From Cystobasidium ongulense (taxonomy: Eukaryota > Basidiomycota > Cystobasidiomycetes > Cystobasidiales > Cystobasidiaceae), in the NCBI GenBank assembly GCA_022835595.1, contig BQUP01000002.1, forward strand, positions 372,001 through 436,000: DNA of 64,000 bases, given 5' to 3'. Shown here piece by piece: positions 14,595-24,118 of the stretch. The notes beneath the pieces are model-generated. The model was given only the letters and a program-made list of their open reading frames with translations. It did no database searches and was not told the DNA's origin. Made by a program: the position numbers and the translations under genes. The stretch's first letter is position 1. Every line of letters starts with the position of its first letter.

Positions 14595-17500
14595 ATGAAG
14601 GTGAGCGGATGCGATCACAGGGTTGCATGCAGGCAGGGTGCATTCACACCAGCATAGCAGATAGCTGATGTCTGTATTGCAATAGTTCGGCAAGCAGCTG
14701 GCCGCTCAGCAGGTCCCGGTATGGGCACCCTTCTACATCGACTATAAAGGCCTGAAGAAGGTGAGCCGGCACAGCTAGCCTAGAGCTTTGCAGCATAGAC
14801 AGCTCATTCATGACTGCAACAACAACACTTCAGATCATCAACTCTCTCGCCAAAGGTCGACCTGCAGATGCTGCTCTCCTAGCTGCTGGCTTTCGTCCAC
14901 CGTTCAATGCTTCGTCCTCGGATCCGGCAACCAGCAATAATGCAGCAAGCACATCAAACGGGCCGTCAGTTCCGCTGAACGATAGCAACAGCTCTGAGAT
15001 ACATGCTGCAGCCACCCATGCAGCTTCCAACTCGTCGCAGCCATCGTTTCTGCCTGACCACGGCGAAAGCGCACTCCTTCAAGCGCACCGTGCAGCTTTC
15101 TTCTTCAAGCTGGAGCGGGAGCTTGAGAAGGTGTGCAGATTGTCGTAAATCTATATAATGTGACACTGAATAACTCCCATACTCCAGATCAATGCCTTCT
15201 ATCTGCAAAAGGAATCTGAAATGAAGAGCCGGCTGCGAGCACTCATAGACAAGCGTAAGACTGTTCAAGCGCGCTTAGCCGGTACACTGTCCCGGGACTC
15301 TGCTGCTTTCTTAGCATTGTACGAGGGTTTGCGGTACTTTGAGCGTGATCTCAGCAAGCTCCAGGTATGTAAGAAGTCATAGCCTGGTTGAAATCCGTAG
15401 CTTACTTTCATAACTCAATCAACAGAATTATATCGAAATGAACGCAACTGGCTTTCGGAAGATACTGAAGAAATGGGACAAGAGATCCAAATCTACTACC
15501 AAAGAACTGTATTTGGCCCGTCAAGTTGACGTTCAGCCATGCTTCAACCGAGATGTTATCAGCGAGCTTTCGGATACAGCTTCTGCTAATGTCCGAAAGC
15601 TGGAAGGATTATGTATAGCAAAAGGTGGAGAACAGACATTGGATCCAGCAGCCGACGGTATCTTGAGCGAAAGAAGAGCTGAACTTGCTGTCGCCAATGC
15701 CGAAGCGCAAGATGATCTACTGTCGAATATAGAGAACGAATTGCTTGCTGCAGTCAAGGCCAATGACAGATCAGCGGTGCATAACATACTTGCGCACATA
15801 CCTCCACACGAAAACATGGACAAGGAAATGCAGTCACAACTGGCAAGAATATATTGGCGAGCTGCAATTGCGGATCAAGCAGGCGAAAGAGCAGCTCTGG
15901 ATATTGCCCGTCTAGATTTCCGATTTGTCGACGACATCAACGGTCGAACGCCTCTCATAGAAGCAGCTGCAATGGGCAAGAAAGCTCTGGTCGAGCTGTG
16001 CCTAGACCAAGCCGTAGACATTCGCCACCGTGATGCATATGGACGAGAAGCCGTACATTACGCCGCCATGTGCAGTGCCGAAGTCAGCCAGTGTCTCTTA
16101 GAGCACGGGGCTGAGGCCAATACAGTAGACTACGATGGCGCAACACCCCTTATACACGCCATCACAACTGGACAGCTAGAGTGCGTCGAAGTGCTCTTGG
16201 GGAATCTCCGAGCAAACCCCGACTCGACAGACTCCTCGCAGCCCCTAGCTCTTGCGGCAAGACTTGGACATCTACCAATTGTCTCTCTACTACTCGATAA
16301 CGGCTACAAGATGCTACCTGACGCATCAGGCTATCTACCACAACATATTGCCGCGAAGGAAGGACATGTTCAGGTCTTGCAAAAGCTCATTGAGGCGGGC
16401 GCGAGTGTCAATGCTCCGGACAAGTTTGCAAATTGGACACCTCTTTTCCACGCTGCCAACGAGGGACATCACCAATGCGTCTGCATCCTCCTGCAAGCTG
16501 GCGCCGACCTAGCAGCTGTTGACGATCAAGGCAAAACGGCGGTACATCACGCGGCATGGAGCGGACATCCTAAGATTGTCTCGGTGCTGCTAGCTGCTTC
16601 CACGAAAGTATCTACCCCTGTCATCACCTCCAAATCACCATCGCCAAGTATGCTGGCAGTATCCAAGAAAAGGACAGCGGACGATGTCTCTGCTGCTGAC
16701 AACATGGACATTGACAGCGATCTCATACCAGACTTATCGTTACCGCCTCCGGCTTTACCGCTACGGACCTATGGTCACAGCTACCTTGATGGCAAACGCT
16801 GTCTGATACAGTTGGCTCTGGGTCACCCAACGTCAGATGTTAAGCCAATTCCGCCCATACGCTTCTATCGCTCCGACCAGCTCACCTCGCTCAAGCTGGT
16901 TGTCACCTCCAAATCAGAAACTCATAACGTACCTCATACTGTGATGCTACCTCTTCAAGACGATGCCGAAAGCATTTCAATGTCTGTAGAGTCGCTGGAA
17001 AATCTGGCATTGGAACTGGAGGTGTACCCGACCTTCGGCTCTAGATTGATCGGCAAAGCCGTCTGTCTCTCCTCGGTCTTCTCGAAGCTGAGAGGTATTC
17101 AGAGCTTAACAGCGCCTATACTGGATAGTCACCTGAATGTCATTGGTGAGATTAATTTTGAAGTGAATGCTATCAGCCACTTCAGCAATGTACAGCTGGC
17201 TATCGGAGGTCGCCTCGAAACATATTGGAAATCAACCACCGCCGAAGCTGCCCCGAAAAGCAAGTCATGGAAAGCAGCAGCAACAGCGCAAGATGACCTG
17301 TCTTTCGTGACTGCCTCTTCTCTAATAGGAGAATATGTTAAGTTGGTAGTACAAGTGACAAGGGACGGCGTGCCGGTCACCTTTCCGGCCTGGAAGCTAC
17401 CATTGGATAATATCGATCTTCACGTCTCCGATGTTACCTGGGCACAATTATCGTTCATTGCGGAACAGACAGGGCGAACGTTGCGAACGATCTCGAAAGT

Positions 17501-18303
17501 CGGAGCCGACTCGAGACTTTGGTATAGCGCCTTGAGCAACGTGATAGCGCCTCTCCAGGACGTATTTCAGGTAGACTAGGTTCTCACTCGGTATGGAAGG
17601 CAGCATGAACTAATTCTTGGTTCATCACCTAGGCATGCCCGTCCGAAGTTGGCCTTCATTTGGAAGTACGCTATCCTACAGAGTCAGACTTGGAACGACT
17701 GGGAATTCGCGATATGCTAGACGTCAACTTTTCCATCGACAATATCCTGAACGTTGTCTACGCTAATGCGCTTGGCAATCCTAACTCACGCGCGACGAGA
17801 CGAATTGTCTTCTCGTCCTTCTCGCCGGTTGCCTGTGCAGCACTTAATTGGAAGCAGCCAAATTGTACGTGCGTTGACCACAGCCATTTGGACCTTTGCT
17901 GACTCCGCGTAATTCACCAGATGCTGTCCTTTTCGCCAGCTATTGCGGCTTGTCGCGCTCGACGCCCGAAGGCCAGCTTCAACCACCCCATCGACTAGAA
18001 CTGGACCGCCGTTGCACAAGTATCGAAGGCGCTGTGAAATTTGCTAAAGCCAACAATGTACTCGGACTTCTGCTTGATGCCACTATTATGGTAAGTGAAC
18101 AATATCATCACAGATTGCTTATAAGAGCTTACCGCCTTGCATCGTCATAGACTCAAGTTCCCTCCTTGGTTGAAAGTGTCAAGGAAAGCGGCCTCCTTTT
18201 GGGTTTGTTTGGCAACAGTGCAAGATCTTTGCCACACATCGATGCATGGACACCAAGGGAAGGCGTCTTGCTTGCAAAACCGCGGGAAAACGATTATCTG
18301 TGA
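14595..18303 (+). CDS. PHO81: Pho81-type phosphate-sensing CDK inhibitor (SPX - ankyrin - GDPD-like)
   Basis: In yeast Pho81 inhibits the Pho80-Pho85 kinase when phosphate is low, through inositol polyphosphate sensing. Eight exons (14595-14600, 14686-14760, 14834-15130, 15188-15364, 15426-17570, 17633-17864, 17921-18090, 18151-18303) give 3,255 nt and 1,084 residues. Exon 1 is only ATGAAG and joins to FGKQLAAQQVPVWAPFYIDY, the SPX start; lysine-rich SPX helices end near residue 220. Ankyrin repeats span about residues 300-540 (GRTPLIEAAAMGKKALVELC, DGATPLIHAITTGQLECVEV, NWTPLFHAANEGHHQCVCIL). The C-terminal part (about 720-1084) resembles the incomplete GDPD domain of Pho81 (LHLEVRYPTESDLERLGI, VLFASYCGLSRSTPEGQ, LLLDATIMTQVPSLVESVK) and lacks an obvious metal-binding His/Glu set. 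The exact 3' end is uncertain. Confidence 0.93.
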
Positions 18304-19101
18304 AGACGGGAATCTACCAAGGCAGGGGCAAAAAATACCTTTCTTTCTGCTGTGGGGACGGCGCCATCTAAATCCCTACAGCAAAGCCTTTCTGACTGGC
18401 GAGGTGCTACTCAAGTCGTGACAAAACAATTCATTGTCCCACTGCAGTCGAGGTACTTTCGGACCGTCAGACCGCGAATAAACGGCTAGGCAAGCTCGCA
18501 AATCTCGTGGACGAGCTTATAAGCGCGAGCATCTCATGAAACGGACGCCTCCCGATAATGTTGACTGCCGCTTGTACTTGCCGATGGCCAGTTTTCTTGG
18601 CTATGTCATTTTCGTCTACCAAGGGGAAGCAGGGAAAATTGCTACATCACCACTGTGCTAGACGGCATATCGAGGCATGGCTATAACCGCCACATACATG
18701 TCCAAGGACCACGCCAGCGGGCGGTACGAATCATCATCATCAAATGGCGTATTGCGAAGCAGCTTTAGCGTGCACATCACATCAGGGCCTACTTCCACAA
18801 ATCCGTGGAATACGTCTGCGATTGTTGATGACATTTGCTTCTGCAAATGCCCGATTTAGCGGACCTTCATTCAGACTGCTGGACCTAGGAGAATTCCCCT
18901 GAAAAACTGTGAACCCGACGCAGACGGTCATGCAGGATTTTCTCGTCTCGGTAACTTTTACCGATCGCTGTACCCGATAGGCGTGACATACTTTATTGTC
19001 GATGCACATGTTTCTAGTTCCATGAATGGCTAATGGACAAGGTATAGGCTCGTGACCAGAAGCGTGATAATGGACACATCATCCGATACATCTCTAGTGA
19101 A
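18304..19101. other. Intergenic between convergent PHO81 and tandem-family copy A
   Basis: About 800 nt between two convergent genes. A 30-codon open stretch at 18449-18538 (frame EVLSDRQTANKRLGKLANLV), preceded by a CTGCAG acceptor, could be a further PHO81 exon, but no donor of the right phase was found. A 62-codon minus-strand frame at 18658-18846 shows no resemblance to the neighbouring family. Nothing else was seen. Confidence 0.45.
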
Positions 19102-19805
19102 CTACCTGAATAGCATCTCGGCGCTACTGGGCTGTCTAACCGATGAAGACAGTTCCACTATCTTCTCCCCTGCTTGAATCAATATGGAAAGATCGATCGC
19201 CTCCCCACCAGTCGTAGAATGCTGTTCGTTGACTTCATGACCTTTGGCAGGCATAATTCTTTCGAGTAAATGCGCGTACACCTCTACACGACTGACCTCT
19301 TCCTCTTCACGTCCCAGGCACTTATGAAGGATCATGGTAGTCCTATCACGATAAGGTAGAAAAGCCAAATAAGGGAACTTTACTCCCATGAAGGTAGAAT
19401 CGTATCTGTGCACGATTCGCTGAGATTCATGATTGAAATCAAGAGTAGTGGTACTACATACATTGGGTCATCAATGGATTGTGATCTACTTCACGGATGG
19501 ATCTACAAGACTTACACTATCTGATGATCTCGCATGAGACCTGACTTGTTTGTAAGCATACGTGCAACGTTCTCCCGGCCATCGAATTCCACGGTCACGA
19601 CGTCGACCTGGCTTGTCACGATCATCTCCACATCGGCTATCACCGAAGCGAAGCTCGTGTCAAGCAAGCCTCGTACGCATCAGAAGAAATCACGCTTACC
19701 ATGCAAGAAAGGCGACACACGATCCTTGTCCTTCGATTCGAGAGCTTCGTAAAAGCGTTGAAACCAATCTTTCTCCCAATCCAACTGGGATTCGGTAAGA
19801 ACCAT
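19102..19805 (-). CDS. Tandem-family copy A: small NTF2/SnoaL-like protein
   Basis: Exons 19700-19805, 19516-19636 and 19102-19453 (106, 121, 352 nt) give 192 residues; introns are 63 and 62 nt, phases 1 and 2. The N-terminus is MVLTESQLDWEKDWFQRFYE, the pattern shared by the cluster: L-T-x-x-Q-x-x-(W/F)-E-x-x-W. A beta-rich segment (VDVVTVEFDGRENVARML) and RIVHRYDSTFMGVKF follow, then a longer C-terminal part ending SSAEMLFR. The helix-strand layout and length resemble NTF2-like/SnoaL-like folds, but that is inference and no catalytic residues are identifiable. No signal peptide is evident. It is one of five same-strand paralogues with the same intron plan and is closest in structure to copy B. 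Confidence 0.72.
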
Positions 19806-20170
19806 GCTGAGAGGAAGATCTGGATCTGGGTATATTGATAAGGTCAGAGTTGATACGAGGAGAAGGGAAACAACAAGATGAGGTCCAAGGTGGGAGGTCC
19901 ACGAGTGTGCCTTGGGCTGGAGACCCTTACGAACTGTACAGCTATCACCTACGAAAGCATACAGATTGTACTGACGCTCGTACATTACATGCGTGACACA
20001 CGCATCAGACGTCCTAGCCCTTCCTACGCAAATCTCACAATGGAAGGTTAATAGTTAATCATAGAAGCGCGGATTGCACTTGCTACATATAATCAGAAGC
20101 TGGAAAAATGTGTTTCTAAGTCTCAATGGCAACAGCGACAAGGTAAAGGCCGGCGACAAAAACAATGACA
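19806..20170. other. Spacer between copies A and B
   Basis: 365 nt holding the upstream region of copy A and the 3' flank of copy B. No open frame of interest, repeat or RNA was recognised. Confidence 0.5.
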
Positions 20171-20873
20171 CTACCTGAATAGCACCTCAGCGTTGCTAGC
20201 CTTTCTGACTGATGGATGCATTTTAAGTATAGCAAAAGATGTTTGAATCACTCGGAACAGGTTGGTTGCCTTCTGATAAAGCGAGGTATTCTGCTTGGCG
20301 ACTTGTAGGCCCTCCACAGGCATTAGGGAATGCCTATACATGTCTATGCGACTGACTTCTTCCTGGTGATTTCCCAAGTTCTTATGAAAGACAATAGTAC
20401 CGCTACTACGACAAGCTCGAAGGTCCAGATGCCCATTTATCGCCATGAAGGCAGTCCTGTAGCGCCACACGATCTGCTGAGCTTCAAGATCAAAGTCCCA
20501 AGCGCTGGTAGGACCACTGGTACTGAACGAGAGTCAGATTCAAGTCGTGGTTTAGAAGACGGGAAGTTTTAAGGACTTACACTCTGTGATTATCTCCAGT
20601 TATATATGTTTTAAGTGTCAGCATTTTAATCACGTTTTCTTTCCCATAAAGTTCTGCAGTCACGGCAGTCTGCTGATTTATCAGAAACATCTTCACATTT
20701 GCTGGTACGAGGGCGAAGTGCGTGTGGGAAAAAAAACTTCGAACGCGTCAAATCAAATGCCACTTACAGCTCAAGAAAGGTGAAAGGCGCTTCTTGTCCT
20801 TCGAATTGAGTGCCTCCTTCAATCGTCGAAGCCAATCTCGGGCCCATGATAATTGGGGTTCGATAAGTGCCGT
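20171..20873 (-). CDS. Tandem-family copy B: intact frame but ACG in place of the start ATG
   Basis: Exons 20768-20873, 20581-20701 and 20171-20522 are 106, 121 and 352 nt, exactly the lengths in copy A; introns are 66 and 58 nt with phases 1 and 2. The 192 codons are open throughout. Segments match copy A in order: LIEPQLSWARDWLRRLKEAL, YGKENVIKMLTLK, QQIVWRYRTAFMAI, and the ending SNAEVLFR. At the position of the family ATG (20871-20873) the codon is ACG, with G at -3 and G at +4. The frame stays open upstream to about 20954 without an ATG. Either translation starts at a near-cognate ACG, an upstream exon supplies the start, or the copy has recently lost its start. The preserved lengths despite strong sequence divergence argue for selection. 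Confidence 0.6.
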
Positions 20874-21323
20874 GCCGATAGTAAGAGCTGGATATCTGAA
20901 GGCCGATGCGTTCAGCCTTGGTGTGAAGAAGCGGGACGAAAGACTGACCACCAAGCTTGGTGGAGCTTGGGTTCATACGGACTCTACTGCCATGTGCAGC
21001 GGCTCTTGCAGACGAGACCATACGGACCCTCGTACACGACAGACGGGACATATCAGTCGAATTGAGACTATTTAAACCCTGATGACACCACTGGCGCATG
21101 TATGTGCTCAGTGTCGCACATGCTCGACTTTCAGTCCTGGTTGTCAATTATGTTGGACTGAATTGCTTTTGCTCCAAGGACATTGTCCTGTTCGTATGGT
21201 GAACATTAAAGGATCTGTCACATAATGGAAACGTAGAGTCTAGTTCAAGGACACATCGTCCAGCAGATCTTCCCTCCAGCTTTTTCGAGCACTTCCCGAT
21301 GTTTTGATGTTCTCGCTTATGTT
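20874..21323. other. Spacer between copies B and C
   Basis: 450 nt. Would contain the copy B promoter and any upstream exon of copy B. Open frames on both strands here are short and show no family motif. Confidence 0.45.
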
Positions 21324-21856
21324 CTACAAAGTGTGGATATACACCTCTATATACGTGACATCTATTTGTTCACAGCCAAGAGGCTTGTGAAGGATGGTCT
21401 TGCCGCTACTGAAGCGGGGTGGACTCCCATCAATTGCTGTGGAGGTGATCCACCATCTATACAGAATCTGCTGAACTTCGTCACGAAATTCTATCGTATC
21501 CTCATCAATACTGCAAACAAAGGCTCAGTGATGGAGTAGAATCTGCTCGGACGGAGAATAATAGAACTGACACTAGGTTGATGTTCCTAGTGAGGGCGCT
21601 GTAGTCCATTGTCAGCGCTGTAATAACACTTTCCCGGTTCTCGAATTCTACCACGTCCGAGCGATACTCGAGTTTCATCGTCACATTGTCTGGCAAACCG
21701 TTGCTTCATCCGTCAATGAAGTCTAGCGCATCATGGAAAGTCAAGCGTACCACTCAAGTAAGGAGAGATGCGTCTCCCATCCTTTGACATAGTGTCTTCG
21801 ATATAGCATTGGAGCCAAGCTTTTTCCCAAGATAGTTGTGATTTGGTAAGCACCAT
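21324..21856 (-). CDS. Tandem-family copy C: shorter NTF2/SnoaL-like paralogue
   Basis: Exons 21751-21856, 21572-21689 and 21324-21510 (106, 118, 187 nt) give 136 residues; both introns are 61 nt with the cluster's phases 1 and 2. It begins MVLTKSQLSWEKAWLQCYIE, continues NVTMKLEYRSDVVEFENRES, and has IEFRDEVQQILYRWW, aligning with copies A and B. After KTILHKPLGCEQ it departs from them and stops about 56 residues earlier, without the AE-x-LFR ending. It is either a short functional form or a copy whose C-terminus has eroded. No function can be assigned beyond the fold guess. Confidence 0.62.
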
Positions 21857-22301
21857 GGTGAAAGGGGATAATCTAGATCTGTAGGCTAAGATGTTTTGAG
21901 AGTGTTGGTATAGGAGAGGCGTCAAGCCGAGAATCTGGAGAACATGCTCATAGCGAGGGTATGATGAAGAGGCGCTGCATACAGACTATACTGACCGCAG
22001 TACACGGCAGGCGGGACACACCTTCCAGACCTGCCGGACCTTTGATAGCGAGTGACACAATCTCTACGGCTGGGACGTGACGTCGCGCTAGTTAGATGGG
22101 TGTTATCTAGTCACTACGCTTCTTACTGCCCCTCAGAACTCCAGGGAAATGAATACATGTCCGGTCCTTTTGCGAAGGAACCGAAGGCATTGATGAGACT
22201 TGTATTGCACAGGAGACACGATAGGTAAGCTGTTATACCATAAGATATTCTCGACGATGCCGAACGGATACCCAGTCAACCGAGAGTTTTCATAGCGGGC
22301 C
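21857..22301. other. Spacer between copies C and D
   Basis: 445 nt, upstream of copy C and downstream of copy D. Nothing recognised. Confidence 0.5.
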
Positions 22302-22906
22302 TTATTCAGCAGCTTGCGGCGGGGGGGCCATGCCCAATTCCATGAGTCTGCGAGCTAGTGCAGTTCTATCCAGTATAGCCTGCTCTTCAATCATCTTCTC
22401 CTCGTCTACACCTAGAGCTTTCTTGATGACAATTGCAGCAGATGTTGTAATCTTGTTCTGCTCTGGATCAGGCGCGAGTGACATTGTCATGTCGCAAAGA
22501 ATCACAAGTCGAGATTCTTGCTCATCTATCACTACCTGTATGTTACTACAGCAGATTTTAGAAGAAATATCAGATCAATAAAGTCAGTTGAGGAGTCTCC
22601 TTTTCGCACGAAATGTCAGATGATACTGACCTTGCGTCGAAAAGGCTGAAGAGCTGGCACATTTCTGCGATGCTTTCGCGAATAGCAGTGATCCCCTTGA
22701 GCGTAGGGAGTTCGCCTCTCAGTATCACGGCGTCACCTGCGTGCAGTGTCAAGATCAGACAGAAAGAATTGGCTAGACCATGTGGAATCAGACATACCTT
22801 GGTAGAACGGGTCAACCCAGAGCTCGGGCTTAAGGCTACGGGCACCAACGAGCCATCTCTGCGCCCAGTCTTGCTCAAATGCGATCTGCTTATCTGTGAG
22901 AGTCAT
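22302..22906 (-). CDS. Tandem-family copy D: NTF2/SnoaL-like protein
   Basis: Exons 22798-22906, 22631-22736 and 22302-22545 (109, 106, 244 nt) give 152 residues; introns 61 and 85 nt, phases 1 and 2. It begins MTLTDKQIAFEQDWAQRWLV. The middle exon (GDAVILRGELPTLKGITAIR) shows the Gly-x-x-Ala-Ile turn seen in SnoaL-like domains, and the third has a strand pair (VVIDEQESRLVILCDMT). The C-terminal helical tail contains ALARRLMELGMAPP, matched in copy E by MRMMELGLDP but absent from A-C, so D and E form a subgroup. No signal peptide; probably cytosolic. Ligand binding or catalysis in the fold's pocket is conceivable but unproven. Confidence 0.75.
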
Positions 22907-23506
22907 GGTCGATGCCGTGTACTAGATGGACGTCTGAAATTTCGGGCCTGAGAAGCGAAGACAAGGGCCGAATGGAAATTATTAGACTCTACTGTGTGCA
23001 TCAATGGTAGCAGTCTATTGCGCTATTGCGACGCATGGGAGTGCTTGGACCGTCAGATAACGGTCATCATTGGCGCCGTTGTCTTGATCAGGAATGCAGA
23101 CGAGACGATCCGTTGGGGGTATGCGGGCATATCCAGCCGTTGTGCGGGATTGTGTGCAAAACGAGCTTATGTGCCCCTGCTGTCCGTGCAAGCGAAGCAA
23201 AGAGAGGTGGACAACGAAGGATATCCAGCCGGTGATCGGGAAATGCACGCACACGCGAGCAGCTGAAGGCACGCTTCCTGCCTTCGTGGTGGAGCAGAAT
23301 GACAGTACTACTGAGCCCATGCTAGTCGTGGTAGTGTTTGGCAGAAAAGTGTCACTGAAGACTGGCATCTCAGTCGCTAGACTTTCCACGCAGACCTGCG
23401 TTACGCATCCAGCGGCAGCAAACTGGAATCAAACCAAGCACTTCTAACCCGTACATCGTCTCAGACTACCACATCTATCCAATGTACCTCGGAGGATGAC
23501 CCTAAC
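22907..23506. other. Spacer between copies D and E
   Basis: 600 nt, the longest spacer in the cluster. Overlapping open frames at 22994-23447 (+) and 23015-23389 (-) are mirror frames with no family motif or splice support. I see no sixth copy here. Confidence 0.5.
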
Positions 23507-24118
23507 CTATTGCTGGCAGAAAGCAAGCTTTCGCGGATCCAGCCCAAGCTCCATCATTCTCATTACAACGCCTGAAGGGTCGCTAACTAGCTCTTCAGAA
23601 CGCATCTGCTCTGCTTCTGCGCCGAGTTCCTTGGTTGCAATGCGGACGCAGCGAAGAAGGATCCGCTTATGCTCTGGATCGCCTCTGATAACAACAAAAG
23701 CGTCGTAAATAACAATGATACGGCTATTCTTCTCGTCGATGGTAATGGAAAGATCCCTTTCCAGACGAAAGCGGATTCCGTCAGTACCACAACAACTGAC
23801 ATGAAAGCTAAGGGTGTTTGACTATACTCACCCAGCGTCAAAGTCTTCGAATACGGTGAAGAGATGTTCGCGATACTTGAGAATAGTCGGGCGACCTTTT
23901 AAAAGAGGTCCAGAGGTGCTCCGAAAAGTAGCGTCATCTGCAATGAGGGATGGATACAGGATGGCATTCAGCTTCGTTGGCAATAGACTGTTAGTATCCG
24001 CCTGTAACGCACCGGCATAAAGCATACTCCAGGCTTCGCCATCTTGGCCCAAAGTAAGTGTCTTCCAGCGTTCCACCCATCCGTTCTCGAAAGCAATCTG
24101 AGCTTCGGTCAAAGGCAT
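23507..24118 (-). CDS. Tandem-family copy E: NTF2/SnoaL-like protein
   Basis: Exons 24013-24118, 23832-23937 and 23507-23756 (106, 106, 250 nt) give 153 residues; both introns are 75 nt with phases 1 and 2. It begins MPLTEAQIAFENGWVERWKT. The first intron (23938-24012) is in frame, but removing it lets DDATFRSTSGPLLKGRPTIL align with copy D. The third exon gives LSITIDEKNSRIIVIYDAF and the tail MRMMELGLDPRKLAFCQQ. It is the most upstream gene of the array and, with D, perhaps nearest the ancestral form because both are compact and complete. Confidence 0.75.

Follow-up and report, generated by a model that had tools for sequence, protein, structure and literature searches.

A tandem array of five divergent, probably NTF2-like, three-exon genes in Cystobasidium ongulense

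The segment at positions 19102-24118 of the window (the whole 64,000-nt stretch analysed, positions 372001-436000 of contig C2) contains, within 5 kb, five homologous genes on the minus strand, termed A to E, each modelled with three exons and with introns in phase 1 and then phase 2. The five genes share descent, and the places of their introns are conserved. We are highly confident of their assignment to the NTF2-like superfamily and of the tandem origin of the array. The reading that we favour, with moderate confidence for the whole, is that small NTF2-like proteins of the DUF4440/SnoaL type, which bind ligands and are probably cytosolic, expanded in tandem by birth-and-death. Of its parts, birth-and-death is quite likely to have been the mode of expansion, and ligand binding is proposed only tentatively as the function. 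The array offers a compact case of tandem birth-and-death in a fold with diverse functions, and does not represent a new protein superfamily. The genes and the upstream elements discussed below are listed in Table 1.

Table 1. Positions in the window of the array genes and of the upstream block copies.
Feature	Position	Strand	Description
Gene A	19102-19805	-	exons 19805-19700, 19636-19516, 19453-19102; 192 aa
Gene B	20171-20873	-	exons 20873-20768, 20701-20581, 20522-20171; 192 open codons, ACG for ATG
Gene C	21324-21856	-	exons 21856-21751, 21689-21572, 21510-21324; 136 aa; without the A/B C-terminal tail
Gene D	22302-22906	-	exons 22906-22798, 22736-22631, 22545-22302; 152 aa
Gene E	23507-24118	-	exons 24118-24013, 23937-23832, 23756-23507; 153 aa; DUF4440/NTF2-like
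Upstream block core, A	19969-19998	-	164 nt before first coding base
Upstream block core, B	21021-21050	-	148 nt before first coding base
Upstream block core, C	21989-22018	-	133 nt before first coding base
Degenerate fourth block copy (putative)	18959-18988	-	3 mismatches to the loose pattern; spaced 1010 nt from that of A

The rebuilt gene models reproduced the first-exon lengths given in the initial annotation (106 nt in A, B, C and E, and 109 nt in D) as well as its intron phases, and the introns of the five genes range from 58 to 85 nt. The N-terminal pattern proposed there as shared, L-T-x-x-Q-x-x-(W/F)-E-x-x-W, held in general, with B deviating at two positions. Intron 2 of E was modelled as 75 nt (acceptor next to 23756) and not as 36 nt, because the distance from FDA to ID then equals that in D, and because the similarity of two proteins from a public collection, P0001 and P0003 (see below), to E begins at or just before exon 3 when it is so placed. 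The first intron of E is supported by another relative, P0005, whose similarity to E covers exon 1 and stops there, the protein ending after 11 further, divergent residues. As the only residue at which P0002 differs from the unspliced frame of E sits inside intron 1, this relative tells little on the splicing of E. The first intron of E (23938-24012, minus strand) is 75 nt long and stop-free in frame; its retention would add 25 residues and keep the frame.

BLASTP identities were 37-42% within A-C (42% for B versus A) and 33% between D and E. Across the subgroups the BLASTP matches were weaker, with E-values computed for five subjects, and the pairs B-D, B-E and C-D gave no match at E up to 1 under the same computation. 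A profile comparison gave an E-value of 1.3e-5. The BLASTP and profile comparisons support what had been suggested at the outset, namely a tandem expansion in which A-C and D-E form subgroups. When the five-copy profile was run against the six-frame translation of the window, 14 frames holding all 15 exons were found at E 3.1e-8 or better, and the next frame beyond the array exons came only at E 0.24. When E, A, D and C were each used to search the organism's own genome (19.77 Mb in 19 contigs), array exons alone were returned, the counts in these searches being lower bounds.

In a collection of 5.8 billion proteins, E as the query generated three matches among 47 candidates, and a seven-row alignment generated five among 1390 candidates at E up to 0.1. 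With A as the query, none of 47 candidates matched at E up to 1, P0004 (101 aa) being too short for the length limits of that search. P0001, P0002, P0003 and P0005 are E-type relatives, and P0004, a near-identical copy of exon 1 of A with a leader, is the sole A-type relative found. All five relatives are exon-level fragments, so the absence of more A-type relatives is weak evidence. No relative was confirmed in viral contigs scanned with P0001, and literature searches on fungal NTF2/SnoaL families or arrays brought up no recognisable description of this array.

E matched the Pfam model DUF4440 (PF14534, NTF2-like) at E 9.2e-7 with 29.7 bits against a curated cut-off of 25.2 bits, for which A scored 15.3 bits. 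The SnoaL_2 model (PF12680) was matched by A at E 3.1e-4 (21.8 bits) and by E at 1.2e-4, both under its cut-off of 27 bits. These matches support the original guess of NTF2/SnoaL-like proteins. B, C and D generated no NTF2-like match of their own in Pfam, and are therefore placed in the superfamily only via their similarity to E and A. The accompanying proposal of an undescribed family was not upheld at the superfamily level, given the score of E with DUF4440, although neither B nor C nor D by itself matches an NTF2-like model. Weak NCBIfam matches include one of A to PRK08241 (0.0071, below cut-off), which we take to be a sigma-70 factor with a C-terminal SnoaL domain, and one of a member of B-E, taken to be E, to TIGR02246 (SgcJ/EcaC) at E 0.012. 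Unrelated models score like these weak superfamily matches, with E-values in NCBIfam of 0.0068 for phosphate butyryltransferase and 0.048 for an aconitase-type model, and in Pfam of 0.017 for Neil1 DNA-binding, besides RNase E/G domains and others.

Profile searches of the PDB returned nothing significant with the five-copy profile (ketosteroid isomerase 0.15 and the unrelated acyl carrier protein 0.24) or the D/E profile (acyl carrier protein 0.86), and no match up to E 10 with the A-C profile, A or D. For E translated straight through its two introns, AlphaFold2 gave a model of pLDDT 42 and pTM 0.40, which is uninformative on the fold. An exon-by-exon search of the genome for DUF4440 found no match elsewhere, which is weak evidence of absence since E itself was also missed; the searches for DUF4440 and SnoaL_2 both missed the array, as exons are read one at a time. 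The only SnoaL_2 match in the exon-by-exon genome search, which is over the cut-off, was a separate gene on contig C1 (L015 1433-1744, minus strand). An excerpt of PMC3924330 describes the NTF2-like superfamily as having no common sequence motif and as comprising catalytic and non-catalytic versions.

A block of about 45 nt is common to the upstream regions of A, B and C. Its pairwise identities are 70, 74 and 78%, versus 51, 50 and 42% in the remaining upstream region, the block edges having been picked after viewing the alignment. A strict 30-nt core pattern, built from those same three array sites, was searched against the whole genome with up to three mismatches and generated three matches, all exact and all in the array, and none in the reversed control. 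Because the intron sequences of A, B and C remain partly alignable in some pairs, part of the block identity may come from shared descent and not from constraint; block identity is nonetheless above that of the remaining upstream region in three of three pairs. The block allows a test of whether promoter and gene duplicated and stayed together.

A degenerate fourth copy of the block was found at 1010 nt from that of A, versus block spacings of 1052 and 968 nt in the array. The loose pattern generated nine matches in the whole genome, four in the array and five elsewhere (one of these at two mismatches), against seven in the reversed control. The fourth copy is therefore notable for its place and orientation, not for its score. 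In nhmmer it reached only E 0.098. By a hand calculation, with an interval width of our choosing, one of five matches would land this close to the expected place (within about 120 nt) and on the right strand by chance with a probability of about 1.5e-5. A coding relic was sought at 17590-19020 by DNA alignment and profile, and nothing above chance was found, the DNA comparison with A returning just the 21 nt that the two compared stretches had in common by overlapping. From its position, the fourth copy is probably the remnant of a lost sixth unit. An 18-nt stretch of the block of B (21007-21024) recurs at 89% identity upstream of D (23095-23112), which could be a trace of the block or chance.

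Three copies show peculiarities of their own. B carries ACG at the place homologous to the ATG of A, C, D and E, and no in-frame ATG for B occurs before a stop at 20975. B would either have lost its ATG recently or start at ACG, and is a natural test case of a non-AUG start versus recent pseudogenisation. In the alignment, C ends 50-53 residues short of the ends of B and A. Aligned with the tails of A and B, the DNA downstream of C did no better than shuffled sequences; C may have lost its tail, or A and B may have gained theirs. The frame of A (19680-20054, minus strand) runs on upstream of the modelled ATG, where it includes a hydrophobic stretch and, near 19985, another in-frame ATG. By eye, P0004 retains this upstream frame of A with one difference, and the A protein may be longer than modelled.

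The identity between A and B was 56, 72 and 58% at codon positions 1, 2 and 3, respectively. By the NG86 method, dN/dS was 0.47 for A-B (bootstrap 0.28-0.71; 300 of 300 replicates usable), 0.31 for A-C (0.15-0.60; 46 of 300 bootstraps without a usable ratio), and 0.33 for B-C (0.15-0.58; 18 of 300 without a usable ratio). YN00, which covered A-B and A-C, gave about 0.66 (0.50/0.76) and about 0.67 (0.68/1.02), respectively. The dN/dS values rest on pairs within A-C, dS being not computable for D-E and the between-subgroup pairs. A-C are under selection weaker than strict, yet below neutrality, and can be called constrained but fast; the earlier description of the copies as fast-evolving stands for this subgroup. 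Among 133 columns, 22 differ in B alone and 15 in A alone, and B is not clearly accelerated relative to A.

Of the surrounding ORFs, five of the 40 listed in the window, one of which has 721 residues and was represented by its first 400, were scanned against Pfam together with a further, shorter ORF, which identified an SPX-ankyrin, a trehalase and a leucine-rich-repeat frame and three without matches. The SPX-ankyrin ORF (15414-17579, plus strand) carries only the end of the SPX domain (307-337 of its 340 positions), and the preceding exons are therefore probably located further upstream. The segment 30012-30515 (minus strand) is part of a trehalase gene. Neighbours such as the SPX-ankyrin protein and the trehalase, like the lengths of the array introns, would fit a fungal genome.

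These observations bear on several other explanations of the array. The missing ATG of B, the shorter C and the seeming loss of a sixth unit would be expected if A-C were decaying pseudogenes and D and E alone were working, but we consider this improbable. The frames are open and the modelled splice sites are kept in A, B and C, NG86 dN/dS is below 1 in all three pairs without clear acceleration of B, and in simulations of neutral drift of A at 0.1, 0.2 and 0.3 substitutions per site, an open frame survived in 684, 131 and 32 runs out of 5000, respectively. Slightly less probable still is that A-C are lineage-restricted paralogues with a new function, in which the block of about 45 nt would be a private upstream control element, the A/B tail an addition, and B a protein made from ACG. 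That the proteins adopt a fold not yet recognised, with no relation to known families, agrees with B, C and D alone matching nothing convincing and with the sole A-type relative being P0004, with its near-identical exon 1, and has hardly any weight beside the passing of the curated NTF2-like model by E, which is homologous to A-D.

Among explanations that accept the superfamily, the one that makes the proteins metabolic-pathway enzymes like SnoaL, scytalone dehydratase or ketosteroid isomerase is rather unlikely but comes closest to the reading that we favour. The SnoaL_2 and DUF4440 matches, and weakly that to SgcJ/EcaC, fit such enzymes, as do several acidic residues common to D and E, and UvEC1, a fungal SnoaL-like protein, offers a precedent, being described in an excerpt of PMC8071170 as a putative ester cyclase. 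Against them, the aligned residues invariant in all five copies are only L, Q, W, K, L and G, and no tailoring enzyme was among the six scanned surrounding ORFs, which are a small part of the window. In an alignment that is weak across the subgroups, none of Asp, Glu, His and Tyr lines up throughout the five copies, though D and E have several acidic residues in common; a single reaction for the whole set is for this reason less probable than binding or than activities particular to each copy. A role as secreted effectors would accord with the fast evolution of A-C and with the NTF2-like fold reported for a rust fungus candidate effector in an excerpt of PMC6889267, and A, with its longer upstream frame and hydrophobic stretch, might be secreted. 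Such a role is very unlikely overall, the N-termini from the modelled starts appearing by eye as polar helices with no signal peptide.

In the favoured birth-and-death expansion of ligand-binding proteins, E (and D) would represent the conserved founder type, and duplication together with the upstream block would have produced A-C and a sixth unit that was later lost. Each protein would fold as an NTF2 cone that binds a small hydrophobic ligand, with divergence among the copies lying in the pocket.

Among known systems, the solved structure to which the array could be compared is that of Rv3472 (PDB 2chc), presumably a mycobacterial protein of NTF2-like fold, with which residues 24-132 of E align, though at an E-value of only 0.012; a literature search on Rv3472 found nothing. 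The likeness to SnoaL_2 lies in the matches of both A and E, which differ from accepted members in scoring under the cut-off. With DUF4440, A-D stay below the cut-off, and the array proteins differ in their extra C-terminal tails and three-exon gene models, whereas residues 16-114 of E align above the cut-off over positions 6-101 of the 107 in the model.
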